A stretch of 64,000 nt of DNA from Chryseobacterium aquaeductus (lineage in GTDB: Bacteria; Bacteroidota; Bacteroidia; Flavobacteriales; Weeksellaceae): positions 1,426,001 to 1,490,000 of the forward strand of contig NZ_CAJIMS010000001.1 of the NCBI RefSeq assembly GCF_905175375.1. Direction: 5' to 3'. Each line of letters begins with the position of its first letter. Within the stretch, counting starts at the first letter, position 1. The notes under the pieces are model-generated. The model had not been told where the DNA came from, did no database searches, and saw only the letters and a list, made by a program, of their open reading frames with translations. Of the stretch, positions 2,723-33,389 are shown in pieces. The translations under genes and the position numbers were made by a program.

Positions 2723-3427
2723 TTATAAAGGTTTATTAATTAAATCTAAAAATTCTCCCGAAACATTCTGCGTTCTCAAAACGAACTTATCAATTCTCGT
2801 CAACAAAATATTGTAGAAAAAGTTTGCAGGAATTGCCACCGCCAAACCGACAGCGGTTTGTCCCAAAGCTGTGTAAATACCTTCAGATAAAGTTTTTGGC
2901 GAAAAAGCTCCTTCAGCGTGTGACAAATCAAAGAAGGCTATAATCATTCCGATAACCGTTCCCAAAAGTCCCAACATCGGCGCTATACTTGGTACAACTG
3001 CCAAAAGATTGAGGTTTTTCTCCATGTTGGCAACCTCGATCTGAGCCTGAGATTCCATGGCGCTTACGATGTCTGAAACAGGTCTTCCCAACCTTGAAAT
3101 TCCTTTTTCTAAAATTCTGGATTCCGGAGAATTCTGAGTTTTGCAATAATCTGCTGCTGCCTCAATTTTTCCGTCTCTGATGAAATCCTCAATGTAATTC
3201 ATAAAGTTTTCATCTGTCTTTGTGGTCATTCTTCTGATATAGAAAAATCTTTCAAAGAAAATATAAACTGAAAAAACACCCAAAGCCAAGACGGTTGCCA
3301 TTACTATTTTAGCAAAAGCACCTCCATGGAAGAGAATATCCCAAAATGAAAATTCAAGTTTATTGGCAACCACATTGGGCGTTGCAACCTGTGCGAATAA
3401 AATCTGAGTAAGTTCCGTTAACAGCAT
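2723..3427 (-). CDS. exbB: MotA/TolQ/ExbB proton channel family protein
   Basis: A 234-residue inner-membrane protein. The frame also allows a TTG one codon upstream, but the ATG at 3427 is the natural start. Three long hydrophobic segments are visible: about 35-58, then a pair around 140-165 and 180-210. The family core is present: AVVPSIAPMLGLLGTVIGMI, followed by EGIYTALGQTAVGLAVAIPANFFYN. ExbB forms the proton-conducting motor with ExbD, and both partners follow downstream on the same strand. The 170-base region upstream separates it from the 3601-4062 gene, so the operon probably starts here. Confidence 0.92.
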   Translation of the reverse strand: MLLTELTQILFAQVATPNVVANKLEFSFWDILFHGGAFAKIVMATVLALGVFSVYIFFERFFYIRRMTTKTDENFMNYIEDFIRDGKIEAAADYCKTQNSPESRILEKGISRLGRPVSDIVSAMESQAQIEVANMEKNLNLLAVVPSIAPMLGLLGTVIGMIIAFFDLSHAEGAFSPKTLSEGIYTALGQTAVGLAVAIPANFFYNILLTRIDKFVLRTQNVSGEFLDLINKPL

Positions 3428-3600
3428 CAATTTGATTATTTATAATGGTTTTAAACGACAAAAATAAACGAATATTATCAATTCGTATCTTAAAATAAGC
3501 TTAAAAAATGAGATTTAATTGAGTAATGACCCAAAAACAGCAAATTTCTTTCCAAAATACATTTGAAAAGAAATTTAGATAGGTATAAAAAACAGGATTA

Positions 3601-26439: not shown

Positions 26440-27183
26440 TCATCCCACCAGCCAATCTTTAAAATCTTTCACGCGGTCTCGGCTTACGGTAATCTCTTCT
26501 TGTGGCTGATATTGCATTTCAACCTTATAATTGGGGGAAGTGTGAATGTTTTTGATAAAATCTGAATTGATGATAAACTGCCTGTTGGATCGGAAGAATT
26601 TCTTTTCATCAAGCACGTCTTCCAACTCATCCAACGTGAAATCTGATGGATAGGTTCGGTCTTGGGTCTGGAGATATACTATTTTGTTTTCGCTAAAAAA
26701 ACAACTCACTTCATGGGTCTGCACAATCTTTAAATTGTACCCTATTTTCACAAGAATTCTTGAAAGCGTACTTTTTTCTTTTTTGATTAATTGCTTAATA
26801 TCCTGTGAATTAACAGACTGATTTGAAGGTAAGAACGATTTGAATTTCTCGATTGCACCGGCAAGATCTTCTTCCATGATTGGCTTCAAAAGATAATCGA
26901 TACTGTTGAGTTTAAACGCTTTCAAAGTATATTGATCAAACGCTGTTGTGTAAATGATAAACGCTTTTGTAGAAATCTTCTCGAAAATATCAAACGACAA
27001 ACCGTCACCCAAAACAATGTCTGAAAAAATAAGTTGGGGATGATCATTTTCAGAAAACCAATGTACCGCATCTTCTACAGATTCCAGATTAGCAACCAAC
27101 TGTAAATCAGGAAAAAGACTCAACATTCTTTCCAACTTTCTTGCTGCTGGTTTTTCGTCTTCTATGATAACCGTTTTAATCAT
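26440..27183 (-). CDS. LytTR-type response regulator
   Basis: A 247-residue response regulator of the LytR/AlgR class. The receiver domain (about 1-120) has the acidic pocket IIEDE, the phospho-acceptor Asp55 in LIFSDIVLGDG, the Thr of IYTTAF and the conserved Lys of LLKP. A LytTR DNA-binding domain follows (about 150-245), with FFRSNRQFIINSDFIKNI typical of the family. It lies last in the minus-strand cluster, with 167 bases before it. Its partner kinase is the 2TM-fused sensor at 28399-29724. The repeats at 28031, 29780 and 32830 are candidate binding sites. Confidence 0.92.
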   Translation of the reverse strand: MIKTVIIEDEKPAARKLERMLSLFPDLQLVANLESVEDAVHWFSENDHPQLIFSDIVLGDGLSFDIFEKISTKAFIIYTTAFDQYTLKAFKLNSIDYLLKPIMEEDLAGAIEKFKSFLPSNQSVNSQDIKQLIKKEKSTLSRILVKIGYNLKIVQTHEVSCFFSENKIVYLQTQDRTYPSDFTLDELEDVLDEKKFFRSNRQFIINSDFIKNIHTSPNYKVEMQYQPQEEITVSRDRVKDFKDWLVG

Positions 27184-27350: not shown

Positions 27351-27626
27351 CTAAAACTTAATCGGTTTTTTCGTTTTATTCAATTCTTCTTCCAGGATTC
27401 TATTTTCCCATTCTGCATTCAAAACAAATAATTTTACAGCTTTTACGACCAAAATAATTGCCCAAATCGTTACAATAATCGAACCGCCGAATAGCGATTG
27501 AGACCAATCTCCGGTTTTAAAAAATCTTCTGATAAATATAAATGCTGCTACGATCGCAAACCACATGCAGTTTTTATAGAATGACTTCAGGTCTTTTACT
27601 CTCTGTTGTGCGTTGTTGTAATTCAT
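27351..27626 (-). CDS. 2TM domain-containing protein
   Basis: A 91-residue protein with two transmembrane helices (about 20-37 and 47-63). It has the 2TM-family layout AQQRVKDLKSFYKNCMWFAIVAAFIF and a degenerate end, AEWENRILEEEL, where paralogues read WEERKI. It is 25 bases downstream of another 2TM gene (27652-27948) and likely in the same transcript. It is the most divergent of the four 2TM domains in this cluster. Its function is unknown; proteins of this family cluster with LytTR systems. Confidence 0.85.
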   Translation of the reverse strand: MNYNNAQQRVKDLKSFYKNCMWFAIVAAFIFIRRFFKTGDWSQSLFGGSIIVTIWAIILVVKAVKLFVLNAEWENRILEEELNKTKKPIKF

Positions 27627-27651: not shown

Positions 27652-27948
27652 TTAAAGTGATTTTGTATTTCTTTTTTCTCTTTCCATCAGTTCTTTTATT
27701 TTTCTTTCTTCCCAATCTTTTCCGATTCCGAAAGTTCCGATTGCGTGTATGGCAATCCCTAATCCCCATCCCAACATCGGCCAATAAAACCAAAGATGTT
27801 GCGGTGATGTTAAAAGATTAAGAATCAATAAAAACGGAATAACGATGCAGTATGAAGTAAGATTTCCATAAAAACCTTTAAGATCTTTTACTCTTTTTGC
27901 TGCTTTTTCGTAAGCTAAATTTTCTTTGTTGAATGATAAATTTTCCAT
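27652..27948 (-). CDS. 2TM domain-containing protein
   Basis: A 98-residue protein: helical start YEKAAKRVKDLKGFYGN, two transmembrane helices (about 30-48 and 58-75), and an end segment GKDWEERKIKELMERE. It is very close to the C-terminal domain of the histidine kinase at 28399-29724 (shared SLWFYWPMLGWG-type core and GKDWEERKI), so the two arose by a recent duplication. It has its own promoter (box 27992-27999) with an upstream repeat pair at 28031-28060, and it is separated from the kinase operon by a terminator. Confidence 0.9.
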   Translation of the reverse strand: MENLSFNKENLAYEKAAKRVKDLKGFYGNLTSYCIVIPFLLILNLLTSPQHLWFYWPMLGWGLGIAIHAIGTFGIGKDWEERKIKELMEREKRNTKSL

Positions 27949-27991: not shown

Positions 27992-28060
27992 CAAATTTAG
28001 GTCAAGAAACAGCCTTACTTCAACTTTATATTACCGAACGGTCAATTTTCTGCACTGAAC
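27992..28060 (-). promoter_or_regulatory. Promoter and LytTR-type direct repeat upstream of the 2TM genes
   Basis: On the minus strand there is a -7 box TAAATTTG (27992-27999, plus strand CAAATTTA). Upstream lies a two-part repeat: TTACCGAAC (28031-28039) and GCACTGAAC (28052-28060), 21 bp apart start to start, read on the plus strand. The ACCGAA core starts 34 bases beyond the box. The same layout is found at two other promoters in this window. The minus-strand form of the proximal half is ACCGTTCGGTAA, which resembles the CCGTTCG core of AlgR sites. Confidence 0.65.
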
Positions 28061-28068
28061 AGCAAAAA

Positions 28069-28091
28069 TCCCGACTCTATTGAAATCGGGA
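28069..28091 (-). terminator. Terminator of the kinase-2TM transcript
   Basis: TCCCGA and TCGGGA pair around a 11-base loop; read on the minus strand the hairpin is followed by TTTTTG. It lies 22 bases past the stop of the 2TM gene at 28113 and before the promoter of the next 2TM gene, so the cluster is split into two transcripts. Confidence 0.7.
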
Positions 28092-28112
28092 CTAATATGT
28101 GTTGAAATCGGT

Positions 28113-28412
28113 TTACTTGTTTTTATCCATCAGTTCTTTTATTTTTCTTTCTTCCCAATTGCTGCCGAATATCATTGCCGGTAAGAAAACACTCAATCCG
28201 TGTGCAACCAGACCGACACCCCACAAGAGAGGCAACTTCAATAAATCCCATTCCCAGTACTTTTCTCCCCGATCCAGATCGAGTGCTTTTGCACCAACAA
28301 TAAAAATATTGACGAAAAAGTAGACCATAGCATGCGTATAAAATCCTTTGATTTTTTTCATCCTTCTTTCCGCCTCGCGATAGCGGATGTGATTTTTGTT
28401 AATATTTTCCAT
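28113..28412 (-). CDS. 2TM domain-containing protein
   Basis: A 99-residue protein, MENINKNHIRYREAERRMKKIKGFYTHAM, then two transmembrane helices (about 30-45 and 62-82), and the signature GSNWEERKIKELMDKNK at the end. It overlaps the end of the kinase gene by 14 bases, so the two are translationally coupled and their stoichiometry may be linked. It belongs to the same paralogous group as 27652-27948 and the kinase C-terminus but is more divergent. Probable inner-membrane partner of the kinase (inferred). Confidence 0.88.
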   Translation of the reverse strand: MENINKNHIRYREAERRMKKIKGFYTHAMVYFFVNIFIVGAKALDLDRGEKYWEWDLLKLPLLWGVGLVAHGLSVFLPAMIFGSNWEERKIKELMDKNK

Positions 28413-29724
28413 TCCTATTTTGTTTTTCTAAAATTTCTCTTATTTTTCTCTCTTCCCAATCTTTTCCTACAGCAAAAGTTCCCATTCCATGAGCCGCAAC
28501 ACCAATTCCCCAACCCAACATTGGCCAATAAAACCAAAGACTCTTGGGAGATGTAATCAGATTTAAAATAATCAGAAAAGGAATAATTACACAATAAGCA
28601 ATAAGATTTCCGTAAAAGCTTTTTATCTCCATCATCCGTTTTTTTGCTCTGTCGTATGCGTGATTATCATCCTCCATCAAATTAGTAACAACACTTGGTT
28701 TATCATTGAGAACAGGAAGTTTTACTTTAAAATAATCTTCAGATTTTTCAATAAAAACATTTTTATCTGTAAGCAAAGAATATCTCTGTACGATGTTTGC
28801 CAAGCCAATTCCTGCACTCTCTTTGATCTGCTCCCGAATCTGGAGATTATTTTCTATACACAAATTGTCGCCTTCGGTAAAAATTGTTATCAACAATGGC
28901 TTAGAAGATGTTGCCAAATTGTGCTTGATGCAGTTTTCCAAAAGCAGCTGCAGAGAAAGTGGGACTACAAACCTTCGCATATCTTCATTTTTGACATTGA
29001 ATTCAAAATTTACACTTTCTTCAAATCTTGTTTTCAACAGATCACAATAGGTTTTTGCAAATTCTATTTCGTCTTCAATAGTCACCAATTCCTTATCTTT
29101 TTGCTCTAAAACATACCGATAAATCTTCGACATGGAAGCGGTGAATTTTTGTGCTTTTGCAGGGTTTTCGTCGATTAATGAGCTTAAAACATTTAAGGAA
29201 TTGAAAAGGAAATGAGGATCTAGCTGGTTTTTTAAACTTTCAAACTGTGCGTTGGCAGATTTTGCGATAAGTTTTTGCTCTACCACTTCTTTTTTGGAAG
29301 TTTTTTTGAGTTCTTCCATAAAGCCTTTTGCGTGCAAAAAAGCCGAAATCAGTAACGCAATATTGATCGTAAACCAATTGATAAAATTGTACCTGCCCGA
29401 AAAATATTCCTGTGTAGAAACTGCTTTTTGAAACACCACAAAATTCATATAATTACAAAAATAAACCAGAATTGTATTGGCGAGAAGTATGGAAATTATA
29501 CTGATAATTGTCCGTTTTGTAGTTGCCTCAGACCAAGGGATTTTTTTGTTTAAAAAGTCATTGATCAATCCGTTTCCTGCACCTAAAAGAAACGAATACA
29601 TTGCGGAAATAAGTAAGGTGAGAAAAAAATTCTCAACAGTTTTTTCGTCAGTAAAAGCGAAAAAAAAGAAAAGTGAAGTGCCAAGCGAAATCCAAAGCAG
29701 TATGATAAAATCTTTACGTTTCAT
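28399..29724 (-). CDS. LytS-type histidine kinase fused to a C-terminal 2TM domain
   Basis: A 441-residue sensor kinase. The N-terminal membrane part has four helices (about 6-25, 33-52, 70-92, 115-135). The kinase (His_kinase PF06580 type) has the phospho-acceptor His171 in LDPHFLFNSLN, the N-box LLLENCIKHN (about 261-270) and the G-box GIGLANIVQRY (about 305-315). Beyond the ATPase (after about 345) it continues into a complete 2TM domain (about 356-435) ending WEERKIREILEK. A membrane domain placed after the kinase is unusual; it would bring the C-terminus back to the membrane. The promoter carries the LytTR-type repeat, implying autoregulation. Confidence 0.9.
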   Translation of the reverse strand: MKRKDFIILLWISLGTSLFFFFAFTDEKTVENFFLTLLISAMYSFLLGAGNGLINDFLNKKIPWSEATTKRTIISIISILLANTILVYFCNYMNFVVFQKAVSTQEYFSGRYNFINWFTINIALLISAFLHAKGFMEELKKTSKKEVVEQKLIAKSANAQFESLKNQLDPHFLFNSLNVLSSLIDENPAKAQKFTASMSKIYRYVLEQKDKELVTIEDEIEFAKTYCDLLKTRFEESVNFEFNVKNEDMRRFVVPLSLQLLLENCIKHNLATSSKPLLITIFTEGDNLCIENNLQIREQIKESAGIGLANIVQRYSLLTDKNVFIEKSEDYFKVKLPVLNDKPSVVTNLMEDDNHAYDRAKKRMMEIKSFYGNLIAYCVIIPFLIILNLITSPKSLWFYWPMLGWGIGVAAHGMGTFAVGKDWEERKIREILEKQNRNGKY

Positions 29725-29741
29725 GAGTCAATTTTCTGATT

Positions 29742-29809
29742 CAAAAATAATTTAAAATATTCTCAGCAAAAATTAATGATTACTGAATGGTTGATTTCAA
29801 TTTCTGAGC
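29742..29809 (-). promoter_or_regulatory. Promoter and LytTR-type direct repeat upstream of the kinase operon
   Basis: The minus-strand -7 box is TATTTTTG (29742-29749; plus strand CAAAAATA). Plus-strand repeat halves are TTACTGAAT (29780-29788) and TTTCTGAGC (29801-29809), 21 bp apart, and the ACTGAA core starts 33 bases past the box. A CAA (minus-strand TTG) at 29767-29769 fits a -33 element. The second half is the weakest of the three sites. The kinase ATG is 18 bases downstream of the box. Confidence 0.65.
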
Positions 29810-29851
29810 AATATAACTTAGCTTTCCAAGAAAAACATGGAACACTTTTCA

Positions 29852-30502
29852 TTATTTTCCAGCTTCTGAACTGATAAAATATTCTGCTTCAGATTTTCCC
29901 CAATGAGGATCTAATGATGTTTTTGGTTTGAAAGAATTAAACTTTTCTAATGCCAATTTAAACATTTCAATACCTTTCGTTTTGCTTCCTCCATATTGCT
30001 CCGGAGTAAAATAAGTATCTTCTGCTTTTATCAAAATGACTCTCGGGTTGTTGGGATTCAATTTTTCTGCAAGATTAAGTTCTTCCTGAGCTTTCATCCC
30101 GAACGTCATGTATCTCTCTTGTGGATTGACCATCATTTTCAAAGAATAAATCATTTTCTGCAAAAGATGAATTTCAGAATTGTCTTTTTCTAAATTGTCG
30201 GCGCTATCCACATATTTTTGCGCCTGATCAGCTGCCTCATCCAAACCTTGGGTTTTGCCTTCTCTCATTATTAATCTTCCTTTCTGAATGTAAGATAATG
30301 CGGCGTAGTAATTGGGTTGCCATTTTGTCGATTCTTTATCGGCAATTCTCTGAAAATCATTTGCCAGAGTCTGGAATTCTTCAGCCGTTTTACAATTCTC
30401 TATTTTAGAGATTTTTTCGGTCATTATTTTTTCATAATTGGTCTGAGCAAATGATACTAAACTCATCATAACTAAAGCAAAGCTTAAAAGATATTTTTTC
30501 AT
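29852..30502 (-). CDS. Exported helical repeat protein, cotranscribed with a TonB-dependent receptor
   Basis: A 216-residue protein with signal peptide MKKYLLSFALVMMSLVSFAQ, so periplasmic. The mature part is almost all helical, with EEFQTLANDFQRIADKES, NYYAALSYIQKGRLIM and LAEKLNPNNPRVILIKAEDTYF, which look like TPR units of irregular length. It lies 40 bases downstream of the TonB-dependent receptor on the same strand and is probably in its transcript and under the same LytTR-type promoter. It could be a periplasmic partner of the receptor; that is inference from position. Confidence 0.72.
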   Translation of the reverse strand: MKKYLLSFALVMMSLVSFAQTNYEKIMTEKISKIENCKTAEEFQTLANDFQRIADKESTKWQPNYYAALSYIQKGRLIMREGKTQGLDEAADQAQKYVDSADNLEKDNSEIHLLQKMIYSLKMMVNPQERYMTFGMKAQEELNLAEKLNPNNPRVILIKAEDTYFTPEQYGGSKTKGIEMFKLALEKFNSFKPKTSLDPHWGKSEAEYFISSEAGK

Positions 30503-30542
30503 GATTATAAATTTTTAATGTTACTATTTTATTATTAAATTA

Positions 30543-32774
30543 TTAAAGATTATTATTAATTGCGTCCTGGGTTTTATCTACTCCAAAACTAATGAACATT
30601 CCTACAAACACAAAAGTATTGACTGGCGGAACTACTGCTGAACTTCGTGATCCGTTTTGAGAGAAATTGTAACCATAAACGTTTTTTGTTCCTAAAATAT
30701 TCGAAACGCTTAAAACAAAAATAGTAAATGCTTTAGCATCTTTTTTACCGAGATTTGGAAGGTAATTAATGCTGAAATTCAGCGCATTATAATCTTTCAG
30801 TCTTCCTTCGTTTCTGATTACATTCTCATTGTTTTGAGTGATAATATCGTAATAAGGTCGTCCTTTTGCGTACGTGTAAGAAAGATTAAATCCGGTTTTC
30901 CATTCCGGGAAAAATCTTTTGGCAACGGCAGAAAGTGTGTGTTCTGCTGCAAAATTTGGCTTTAAGCTCACAGGATAATTCAGAAAATCTCTTTTAGAAT
31001 CCAGAAATGAATAACTGATCCAATAATCTATATTTTCAAAAGTTTTTTTGTCTCTCCAAAAGAGTTCTATTCCTTTTGCAAATCCGTTTCCATTGTTGTT
31101 GAAAGCAGTCTGCACTTGTTGGTTTTGATCGGCATTCGGTATTATATTTTGTGTTTTTATCAATTCATCATACTTTTTATAGAACGCTTCCAGTCTCAAA
31201 CTTCTTCCTTCAGTGGATCTCTGTACCTGAAAAATAAAATGCTGAGATTTTTGAAAATCTAAATTCGCAGACGAGTTAATATATTTACTTTCAGGGTTTT
31301 GAAAGAACAAACCGTAAGCAAAAGAGGTCGTCCAATCTTTTGCCAGACGATAAGCCAATGCAAAACGTGGAGCGATGTTGGTTTTATTTAAATAAGAAGA
31401 ATTTTCTGCTCTTACACCAATCTTTGCAGACAAATGATTGCTGAAACCTAGATCTGTTTCTAAAAATGCTGAAGATATAAGATCCTTAAAATTTTTATTA
31501 ATATCGCCGAAATTCATTTTTTCGCTCGCATTATTTAGTTCAAAACCACCTCTCAAAGCGCTTATTTTATTTATTTTTCTGTCTAAAACTGCCTTAAAGT
31601 TGATATAATTCCCATCGTTTAATACTTGATTACTGGCAGATTCCACTTCATTTTTCTCAGTTGAGAAATTGAGATCAGATTGATTATAAGAATAAGAAGC
31701 TCCGGCATTCAAAAGATATTTCCCGAATTTTTGTTTGAAAGATAAGTTATGATACGTGTTTTTCCCTTTTAATTTAACTAAAGCAAAATCGTAATCCGGT
31801 TCTAAACTTTCTGTTTTTACACCCAATTTATTACTGTCAAACATTCCGTAATATTTTAAAAAACCTCCGGATTTTGTTCTCAGTCTAAAATTGGCATCTC
31901 CGTTGAAACCTTGCGGAGCGTCGATGAAATTGGTATTAAAATTAAAAACTTCCTGCATCAGACTCAGCATAGAATATCCTGCAGTTGCGCCGTAAGAATA
32001 GTTTTTGCTCTCACTTAATTTCTGAAAACCTCCATTCAAAAATATCGGTGACACCCCAAAATCATAAGAACTCTGATCCGGAAGATCAACACTTTCCAAC
32101 ATTAAAGCTCCCGAAAGTGCCTGCCCATATAAAGCAGAATATCCACCGCTTGAGAAAATATTTCCTTTGAAAAGAGAAGTGTTGAAACGGTCTCTGCCTG
32201 CAATTCCCGGAACTGAGTTGGAGAAATAATTGTTGATTAAACTTCCATCCATAAAAATTTTCGTTTCCGAACCTGTTCCTCCACGGACGAAAAGCCCTTC
32301 CGTTTCTCCTACTTTCTGTACGCCTGGGAGAAAATTCAGAGCTGAAGATATTTGTCCGTCTGCTCCTGCGGTTGTATAGATATCTATAGGTGTCAGCAAT
32401 GCTGTGGCTCTTTTTTTGTCACTTGCTTCAATTGATCCCGCAGAAACTACTACAGCGTCTATTTCGTTGATTTGCTCCTTCAATTCAGCGTTTACCAAAA
32501 TATTTTTGTCTTCGATGAAAATCTTTTTCTCAATCTCATTGAATTTTGAATGTACAAATGTGATCGTGTGATTGCCTTTCTCTGAAGTTTCAAAGGAAAA
32601 ATTTCCTTCAGAATCTGTAGTTGCACCGTCGTATGTGTCTTTTAAAGTTACATTAATTTCACTAACTCCTTTGTTCTTGAAGGTTACCTTCCCCGAAATC
32701 TTCACCTGTGCAAAATTCAGAAAAAAACAAAAAAAGAAAATGAGAAATAAAATCCTCTGAATCATGGTATTCAT
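30543..32774 (-). CDS. TonB-dependent receptor with carboxypeptidase-like N-terminal domain
   Basis: A 743-residue outer-membrane receptor. Signal peptide (MIQRILFLIFFFCFFLNFAQ if the ATG at 32765 is used; 32774 also possible) is followed by a carboxypeptidase regulatory-like domain (about 25-105: VKISGKVTFKNKGVSEI onwards). The plug domain contains LNFLPGVQKVGETEGLFVRGG, and a 22-strand barrel follows to the C-terminus. It is shorter than SusC-type proteins and has no SusD neighbour. The substrate is unknown. Its promoter carries the same repeat as the kinase operon, so it is a likely target of the LytTR regulator. Confidence 0.92.
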   Translation of the reverse strand: MNTMIQRILFLIFFFCFFLNFAQVKISGKVTFKNKGVSEINVTLKDTYDGATTDSEGNFSFETSEKGNHTITFVHSKFNEIEKKIFIEDKNILVNAELKEQINEIDAVVVSAGSIEASDKKRATALLTPIDIYTTAGADGQISSALNFLPGVQKVGETEGLFVRGGTGSETKIFMDGSLINNYFSNSVPGIAGRDRFNTSLFKGNIFSSGGYSALYGQALSGALMLESVDLPDQSSYDFGVSPIFLNGGFQKLSESKNYSYGATAGYSMLSLMQEVFNFNTNFIDAPQGFNGDANFRLRTKSGGFLKYYGMFDSNKLGVKTESLEPDYDFALVKLKGKNTYHNLSFKQKFGKYLLNAGASYSYNQSDLNFSTEKNEVESASNQVLNDGNYINFKAVLDRKINKISALRGGFELNNASEKMNFGDINKNFKDLISSAFLETDLGFSNHLSAKIGVRAENSSYLNKTNIAPRFALAYRLAKDWTTSFAYGLFFQNPESKYINSSANLDFQKSQHFIFQVQRSTEGRSLRLEAFYKKYDELIKTQNIIPNADQNQQVQTAFNNNGNGFAKGIELFWRDKKTFENIDYWISYSFLDSKRDFLNYPVSLKPNFAAEHTLSAVAKRFFPEWKTGFNLSYTYAKGRPYYDIITQNNENVIRNEGRLKDYNALNFSINYLPNLGKKDAKAFTIFVLSVSNILGTKNVYGYNFSQNGSRSSAVVPPVNTFVFVGMFISFGVDKTQDAINNNL

Positions 32775-32791
32775 GTCTTATAGTTTGACCT

Positions 32792-32859
32792 CAAAATTAT
32801 ACCACATTATTTTAATCTCATAATTTTTTGTACTGAATGGTCATATTTTTGTACTGAAT
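32792..32859 (-). promoter_or_regulatory. Promoter and LytTR-type direct repeat upstream of the TonB-dependent receptor
   Basis: The minus-strand -7 box is TAATTTTG (32792-32799; plus strand CAAAATTA), 17 bases from the ATG at 32774. On the plus strand the repeat halves are GTACTGAAT (32830-32838) and again GTACTGAAT (32851-32859), identical over 9 bases and 21 bp apart. The ACTGAA core starts 33 bases past the box. This is the cleanest of three sites. It also overlaps the plus-strand promoter of sodC (32844-32851). Confidence 0.75.
32844..32851 (+). promoter_or_regulatory. -7 box of the sodC-like gene
   Basis: TATTTTTG matches TAnnTTTG and ends 34 bases before the sodC ATG. It lies between the two halves of the LytTR-type repeat, so a bound regulator would probably block or alter this promoter while activating the divergent receptor gene. 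Confidence 0.55.
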
Positions 32860-32885
32860 AGGTTTTAAACCACTAAATACAATCT

Positions 32886-33389
32886 ATGAAACTACAAACC
32901 TTAACCTTATTTACAGGTTTTGCACTATTAGCTACATCTTGCAGTTCTAGCAAAACCTACAATATTTTAGCAAAAAGCGGAACCCAAACTGAAGGAATGG
33001 CAGAATTTACTCAAAAAGGGAATGACGTTGTTCTAAAACTGGAAGTGAATAATCTAACTCCTGGCATCCATGCGGTTCATATCCATGAAAAAGGCGATTG
33101 CTCCTCTCCTACTGCAGAATCTGCCGGCGGACACTGGAATCCGTCAAAATCTGACCATGGCAAATGGGGAAATGCACACTTCCACATGGGCGATATAGGA
33201 AATTTGGTTGCTGACCATGAGGGAAAGGCAAAACTGACCTTCAAAACCGACAAATGGTGTCTTGATTGTCCTGAAGAAGCAAAAAACATTATGGGCAAAG
33301 GATTAATCATTCATGCAGGAAAAGATGATTATCAAACTCAGCCAACCGGAAATGCAGGCGGACGAGTGGGATGTATTGAGATTAAATAA
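32886..33389 (+). CDS. sodC: Cu/Zn superoxide dismutase family lipoprotein
   Basis: A 167-residue envelope protein. Signal peptide with lipobox (LLATSC, lipid Cys at 19). The SOD fold has copper ligands in HAVHIHEKGDC and later HFHMGDIGN, the zinc loop GGHWNPSKSDHGKWGNAH, and the end segment LIIHAGKDDYQTQPTGNAGGRVGC, which retains the active-site Arg and the disulfide Cys. It converts superoxide in the envelope to peroxide and oxygen. An inserted CLDCPEEAK segment adds two further Cys. It is divergent from the TonB-dependent receptor. Confidence 0.93.
   Translation: MKLQTLTLFTGFALLATSCSSSKTYNILAKSGTQTEGMAEFTQKGNDVVLKLEVNNLTPGIHAVHIHEKGDCSSPTAESAGGHWNPSKSDHGKWGNAHFHMGDIGNLVADHEGKAKLTFKTDKWCLDCPEEAKNIMGKGLIIHAGKDDYQTQPTGNAGGRVGCIEIK

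Follow-up and report, generated by a model that had tools for sequence, protein, structure and literature searches.

A candidate LytTR regulon that would link a 2TM-kinase system with a HusA-like receptor operon through one phased direct repeat

What joins the genes of a 2TM-bearing two-component system to those of the TonB-dependent receptor beside them? The question arises at a locus in a 64,000-nucleotide stretch of Chryseobacterium aquaeductus DNA, here called the window (G000 C1:1426001-1490000, within a genome of 3.49 Mb), where genes for a receptor and a secreted HusA-like protein lie next to genes for a LytS-type histidine kinase, 2TM membrane proteins and a LytTR response regulator. 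A sequence-only reading had proposed a LytTR regulon, marked by the same repeat at three promoters, that links the kinase system to the receptor. That proposal gained support from the phase of the repeat, its distance to a promoter box, the orthologous promoters of relatives and co-occurrence with the regulator, all of which are comparisons of sequences. We consider it quite probable that the locus encodes a LytS/LytTR two-component regulon, in which the regulator would bind the repeats and activate its own two operons together with the Hus-like receptor operon.

The repeat and its promoters

Three pairs of half-sites, the halves of each 21 bp apart, were located on the plus strand of the window: TTACCGAAC/GCACTGAAC at 28031-28039/28052-28060, TTACTGAAT/TTTCTGAGC at 29780-29788/29801-29809, and GTACTGAAT twice, at 32830-32838/32851-32859. 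Read on the coding strand, the operator approximates ACCRTTCRG-12 bp-ACCRTTCRG, a direct repeat, with TAnnTTTG 33-34 bp further on. The coordinates and spacings of the pairs in the sequence-only reading were all correct on the sequence, as were its distances to the box (33 bp at the receptor and kinase promoters, 34 bp at the 2TM-regulator promoter). We take TAnnTTTG to be the Bacteroidota -7 box, and the half-sites of AlgR and other LytTR proteins resemble ACCGTTCGG. The TTGA at the 2TM-regulator promoter would be a -33 element.

Conservation was assessed over 15-19.5 kb around the kinase gene in 35 further genus genomes, together with two loci of another family; the two latter are left out of the counts, and the start of the receptor gene lies off the stretch in L053 and L058. 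Each site could score up to 18 (12 half-site and 6 box positions) and was called kept at a score of at least 16. Gene order around the kinase was largely kept. The operator and box were kept at all 34 receptor promoters, at all 36 promoters of the 2TM-2TM-regulator operon and at 33 of the 36 kinase promoters. With a stricter half-site score, 34 receptor, 32 kinase and 36 2TM-regulator places had the 21-bp phase, and no other phase between 14 and 32 reached more than 5, 2 and 12 places, respectively. Much of the 12-bp spacer varied while the phase stayed exact. At four of the 34 receptor promoters (L031, L038, L039 and L067), an inverted third half-site, CAGAAAGG, stood between operator and box; a longer inverted repeat was seen by eye at the receptor promoters of more relatives, not in the window.

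Had the repeat been a chance feature, it would lie at random places in related genomes; what was found instead is a phase and box distance fixed at orthologous promoters. A genus-wide search for the 21-bp pair beside TAnnTTTG, with at most one mismatch, gave matches in 75 of 78 whole genomes when the gap was 34 bp and in 76 when it was 33 bp; a backwards control pattern matched none of the 78 with either gap. These matches numbered 246, of which 218 fell inside the locus and 28 outside (lists sorted by reading).

Chance expectation was also estimated for the window and the whole genome. The core pair YTCRG-16-TTCRG occurred five times in the window, three of these being the sites described here, versus a mean of 0.91 and a maximum of 3 in 100 shuffles. 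When the box was added (33-bp gap only, at most two mismatches), two matches remained in the window versus 0.01 expected. Across the whole genome, the pattern with its box matched perfectly only at the receptor and 2TM-regulator promoters, and the kinase site had two mismatches. At up to three mismatches, 23 and 32 matches were obtained, and the backwards control gave 11 and 12; because the control reaches such numbers, most of the matches at this level are noise. The pattern scan also picked up tandem 21-bp units of the TTCGGAATGTCATCTGTACGC type at G000 C1:3247228-3247403 and C1:837375-837445.

Moved targets and the reader of the operator

The receptor orthologue lay outside the 18.7-kb kinase locus in eight of 11 genomes, most of them of other genera, and the operator stood ahead of it in all eight (half-sites 11-12/12, box 6/6). 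If contig numbers match accessions, receptor and kinase genes are about 13-15 kb apart in three Kaistella genomes and tens of kilobases apart in Epilithonimonas. The other three genomes gave no receptor match at the threshold used, yet kept the operator and the kinase operon. Where the receptor gene was divergent and downstream of the regulator gene (three loci), the operator was kept each time, and one further operator-bearing receptor promoter was met by chance (L325). The kinase operon was preceded by the operator in all 16 loci picked from 80, mostly of other genera.

The 28 genus matches that fall outside the locus include 18 examined first and one examined later (G072); among the other nine, several look like coding DNA by eye. 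At 16 of the 18, the operator was followed by a gene for a secreted alpha/beta hydrolase of about 265 aa (Pfam Hydrolase_4/Abhydrolase_1). At the remaining two it stands before another open frame, which is membrane-anchored and has 352 aa at one place and fewer at the other. Hydrolase orthologues with at least 51% identity were present in 10 of 36 genus genomes searched, and the box was fully kept at all ten of their promoters; none was found in G000, where the best match had 25% identity. In other genera, ten of ten places selected among the matches listed precede the same hydrolase, as judged by eye from its start. The gene's surroundings differ (by reading, psd and lon, fumC and lon, or an alcohol-dehydrogenase-like gene and htpG), and in L268 it lies inside the locus, where the receptor gene, the HusA-like gene, the hydrolase gene and the 2TM-kinase operon each have an operator. 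The secreted hydrolase is thus a predicted fourth member of the regulon in relatives. L126 and L127 (G007 and G061) have an operator-like pair and a box (5/6) before a membrane-anchored frame and a frame of 329-338 aa, a possible further target.

The arrangement is older than the genus, since a second family within the order (f3, probably Flavobacteriaceae) has it too. Eight loci of f3 were examined (L046, L047, L315-L320): the kinase, 2TM gene(s) and regulator adjoin a HusA-like gene in seven (all except L320), five show the receptor, and an operator-like pair occurs in seven, with box scores of 5-6/6 (box of L047 unscored). A DUF2141-type secreted protein is encoded between the receptor and HusA-like genes in L046 (8702-9109, minus strand; Pfam for this locus only) and likewise in L047, L315 and L320, and this gene has its own operator-like pair.

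Could the repeat be a promoter-strengthening or RNA element that was duplicated locally and has no specific binder? Its three copies lie within 5 kb, and the A-rich spacer could bend DNA. We regard this as highly improbable, however, as the repeat accompanies receptor and hydrolase genes to other places, holds its 21-bp phase exactly despite much variation of the spacer, is rare where the regulator is absent, and has the geometry of known LytTR repeats. LytTR repeats are described as 9 bp long, mostly 12 bp apart and often 10 bp before the -35 element (PMC6193735), and the LytTR geometry of a 9-bp repeat with 21-bp spacing that the sequence-only reading invoked agrees with such 9-12-9 sites.

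We then asked which protein reads the operator. Co-occurrence was scored in 128 genomes (148 of the family less 20 of the genus), with the 33-bp gap only and regulator orthologues taken at E <1e-80. At least one operator with its box was present in 73 of 74 genomes with the regulator versus four of 54 without it, counts that are uncorrected for descent; the backwards control gave a single match in each of three of the 148 family genomes. Within genera g21, g24, g42 and g43, the operator is missing from those genomes that have no regulator, and their sister genomes have both. These distributions argue against a different regulator, either another LytTR protein or an unrelated factor, binding the repeats, with the site before the kinase operon amounting to one-way control. 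The genome does encode three other LytTR proteins, but their loci score only 9-13/18, and no such operator was found near these genes.

A related 21-bp repeat (half-sites 11/12) with a box also precedes an RND-type efflux operon in four relatives within the genus (L321-L324, from G153, G205, G218 and G072). It lies at about 3100-3440 of the oriented loci, before genes that read as a membrane fusion protein and a pump, and in G153, G205 and G218 a paralogous LytTR regulator with 39% identity is encoded about 7 kb away. A sister LytTR circuit at the RND-type pump is likely. The proximity of this paralogue suggests that related LytTR proteins may read similar sites, which lends something to the different-regulator explanation; we nevertheless hold that explanation to be quite unlikely, and favour binding by the regulator of the locus itself.

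How the bound regulator would act was considered next. As a dimer, it would bind the 9-12-9 direct repeat on one face of the helix, its contacts two turns apart. In the window it would occupy the promoters of the kinase operon, the 2TM-2TM-regulator operon and the operon of the receptor and HusA-like carrier, and in relatives also that of the secreted hydrolase elsewhere in the genome. Because the repeat lies a short way upstream of the promoter, where the repeats of AgrA (centred near -60; PMC4227749) and of autoregulated LytTR systems also lie, binding would activate, with positive feedback on kinase and regulator. Sequence does not fix the sign of control, and the same regulator could act through the same operator as a repressor that the signal removes. 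Binding could block transcription where receptor promoters have the inverted third half-site, but that half-site is not general, and the upstream location of the repeat is the activating position of AgrA and of autoregulated LytTR systems. Repression is therefore unlikely in our estimate. A dedicated sensor very probably controls this uptake system, given that the operator precedes both gene sets and stays with the targets that have moved.

Several observations weigh against the regulon as drawn. In this genome the kinase operator has a degenerate distal half, and two unrelated places (C1:243210 and C1:363003) fit the pattern equally well, with two mismatches each. The kinase promoter has no pair in three of the 36 genus genomes (L048, L051 and L061). 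One genome (G167) has the regulator but no match, and four regulator-less genomes have one. Moreover, the co-occurrence test is partly circular, because most operators share a locus with the regulator gene. As a related repeat precedes the RND-type pump, specificity may be shared among LytTR proteins. Half-sites at the ten hydrolase promoters score 11-12/12 in only five, 10 in four and 8 in one. In f3, L317 has no operator and the box is often 5/6. Finally, a 167-bp gap ahead of the regulator gene leaves room for a promoter of its own.

The genes of the locus and the ligand

The features discussed are collected in Table 1. Three transcription units appear to be present: the receptor with the HusA-like gene, the kinase with a 2TM gene, and two 2TM genes with the regulator. 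The promoters named in the sequence-only reading stood, with one amendment: the promoter it had assigned to the 2TM genes also drives the regulator, if the regulator is cotranscribed with them. With three units, and on that same proviso, one of the three operators drives the regulator itself, so that the regulator's own operon is probably among the targets. The regulator gene lies on the stretch in 35 of 36 genus genomes, and in none of these was an operator found immediately ahead of it. The terminator-like hairpin ahead of the 2TM-2TM-regulator operator would separate this operon from that of the kinase. Hairpins of this type are weak evidence alone (5 in the region versus 4.6 in shuffles), and a similar element was seen by eye in many relatives.

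Table 1. Operators, promoter boxes, genes and hairpin of the locus, in window coordinates
Feature	Coordinates	Strand	Basis or remark
Operator of receptor operon, CCTATTCAG-12-ACCATTCAG	32833..32862	minus	21-bp phase
TAnnTTTG box of receptor promoter, TAATTTTG	32792..32799	minus	33 bp from operator
TonB-dependent receptor, 743 aa, CarboxypepD_reg-like + Plug	30543..32774	minus	Pfam; HusB-like by position only
HusA-like secreted helical protein (tetratricopeptide repeat (TPR)-like), 216 aa	29852..30502	minus	PDB 6bqs/6crl match
Operator of kinase operon, ATTGCTCAG-12-ACCATTCAG	29783..29812	minus	distal half degenerate
TAnnTTTG box of kinase promoter, TATTTTTG	29742..29749	minus	33 bp from operator
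LytS-type histidine kinase: N-terminal membrane part, His_kinase, C-terminal 2TM domain	28399..29724	minus	Pfam
Free 2TM protein (PF13239), overlapping the end of the kinase gene	28113..28412	minus	Pfam
Terminator-like hairpin immediately ahead of 2TM-2TM-regulator operator	28067..28093	minus	hairpin search
Operator of 2TM-2TM-regulator operon, GCTGTTCAG-12-ACCGTTCGG	28034..28063	minus	TTGA follows after 10 bp
TAnnTTTG box of 2TM-regulator promoter, TAAATTTG	27992..27999	minus	34 bp from operator
2TM protein, close paralogue of kinase C-terminal domain (60% identity)	27652..27948	minus	Pfam, alignment
2TM protein	27351..27626	minus	Pfam
Response regulator with receiver and LytTR domains, predicted to bind the operator	26440..27183	minus	Pfam

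The regulator matches PF00072 and PF04397, both above the Pfam cut-off. The kinase is of the PF06580 type and keeps its H, N and G boxes (LKNQLDPHFLFN, ENCIKH and GIGLAN). Its N-terminus consists of four hydrophobic stretches joined by short loops, and as it has no sizeable outer domain, a membrane-borne signal fits. Four 2TM modules are encoded at the locus, one fused to the kinase and three free; PF13239 2TM is the sole Pfam match of the free proteins at E up to 0.001. These free proteins, paralogues of the kinase tail, may tune the kinase as feedback partners. Between the 2TM genes, L031 (8725-9294) encodes an ICMT/PEMT-like membrane methyltransferase of about 189 aa; similar frames occur in L053, L054 and L064, so that the gene is present in all four annotated relatives, and it is missing from the window.

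The Plug match of the receptor lies slightly below the Pfam cut-off, and a homologue in the other family (L319) has Plug and barrel matches above it; an AlphaFold prediction for the receptor reached a mean pLDDT of only 56, too weak to use. A divergent SodC-like gene (window 32886-33389) adjoins the receptor gene. It was rejected as a conserved target: about 24 bp separate its start from the operator in the window, but more than 1 kb does so in many relatives, and another gene intervenes in L031. A SodC homologue adjoins the receptor gene in six of the eight loci in which the receptor lies outside the kinase locus, and the two may thus share more than position.

What the receptor pair would import was approached through its periplasmic member. 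The HusA-like protein matches HusA of Porphyromonas gingivalis (PG_2227; PDB 6bqs, 6crl) at E 1.8e-29 over residues 21-209, and it is for this homology that the pair is called Hus-like. HusA itself, a TPR-like protein, binds porphyrin without iron coordination and presumably hands it over to the receptor HusB (PMC6173696). Across the phylum, 105 of 395 genomes have HusA-like genes (E up to 1e-6), and at 16 of 20 loci from outside the family a receptor homologue lies upstream on the same stretch. Among 120 of the 1128 protein rows, the named homologues are called hypothetical, uncharacterized or tetratricopeptide repeat proteins. A Hus-like function is a good lead, short of a result.

On balance, we lean slightly towards a ligand other than porphyrin or haem, with the HusA-like protein carrying a peptide, a lipid or a siderophore-like compound. 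The groove residues L123, V124, W130 and Y164 of HusA align with M124, V125, Y131 and F165 here, which are hydrophobic or aromatic, and these positions vary widely over 39 aligned rows (one being the window's own gene), which may count against a Hus-like ligand. TPR domains often bind peptides, porphyrin binding is suggested to have been co-opted in Porphyromonas (PMC6173696), and the regulon of relatives includes an alpha/beta hydrolase. Against another ligand stand the strong homology to HusA across the whole mature protein, the wild-type-like haem spectrum retained by HusA Y164F (PMC6173696) and the continued pairing of receptor and HusA-like genes across the phylum. The HusA link suggests which ligand class to try first. 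In the LytTR regulon proposed here, the receptor pair would import a hydrophobic small molecule, of the porphyrin type or similar, and the hydrolase could help to release or process it.

A bolder form of this scheme, which we find unlikely, is a dedicated circuit of Bacteroidota that reports porphyrin status. The 2TM kinase would sense, in the inner membrane, a membrane-soluble porphyrin or a comparable ring compound, the free 2TM proteins would be titrating partners or ligand-binding subunits, and one operator would drive a HusAB-like importer, the releasing hydrolase and the circuit's own synthesis. If true, 2TM (PF13239) would gain a function, and Hus-type systems a regulator of their own. 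Because the operator is fixed by phase, distance and gene set, and by staying with genes that have moved, binding and signal are directly testable. Searches with the operator can also bring additional regulon members to light across Weeksellaceae.

Comparison with known systems

One close likeness is to the LytTR Regulatory Systems (LRS) HdrRM and BrsRM, in which 9-bp repeats 12 bp apart stand ahead of the system's own operon, about 10 bp before -35; here the repeat ends 10 bp before TTGA at the 2TM-regulator promoter. Those systems are positively autoregulated, and membrane proteins are encoded with the regulator, as here (PMC6193735). In contrast, the present system pairs a receiver-bearing regulator with a histidine kinase, its membrane proteins are 2TM (PF13239) rather than DUF3021/DUF2154, and its targets include a TonB receptor. 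Thus, the system works like an LRS without being a member. With the LytS/LytTR systems AgrCA, ComDE, BtsSR and AlgZR it shares a kinase, a LytTR regulator and direct-repeat operators, and BtsSR switches on a transporter gene (PMC10653868). It differs from all four in the C-terminal 2TM domain of the kinase and the several free 2TM proteins, in its TAnnTTTG promoters and in a regulon of receptor and hydrolase.

As in the Hus system of P. gingivalis (HusA, HusB), a HusA-homologous carrier adjoins a TonB receptor, but the receptor gene comes first here; the passages available on Hus do not mention LytTR control of hus. HaeSR of P. gingivalis is likewise a two-component system of Bacteroidota that regulates itself and controls haem acquisition, whereas its kinase resembles VicK/YycG/PhoR and the main text of the paper does not use the terms LytTR, hus or direct repeat (PMC3764172). 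It was set aside as a different system, as were, from the portions available, an OmpR/BaeS-type pair of Riemerella (PMC5399024) and a PSP paper that names 2TM and LytTR (PMC11237479). HusA, 2TM and a two-component system do not appear in the main text available of two papers on iron and haem in Flavobacterium (PMC9331221 and PMC9618737), and in what was available of PMC7139808 LytTR is mentioned solely for AgrA. When F. johnsoniae was co-evolved with Burkholderia, a LytTR gene (two lines) or an adjacent-numbered histidine kinase gene (three lines) was mutated in five of five lines (PMC10197871); the adjacent locus tags suggest that this pair is not the 2TM system, in which 2TM genes intervene.

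A search confined to open-licence literature found no description of a 2TM-LytTR-receptor circuit, and the searches made turned up no function for the 2TM family (PF13239). Two-component systems with LytTR regulators and such repeats are known already, as are systems that combine LytTR proteins with membrane inhibitors. New, as far as searched, are a 2TM-tailed kinase accompanied by free copies of 2TM, the targeting of a HusA-like receptor operon, and a small regulon built on one operator.

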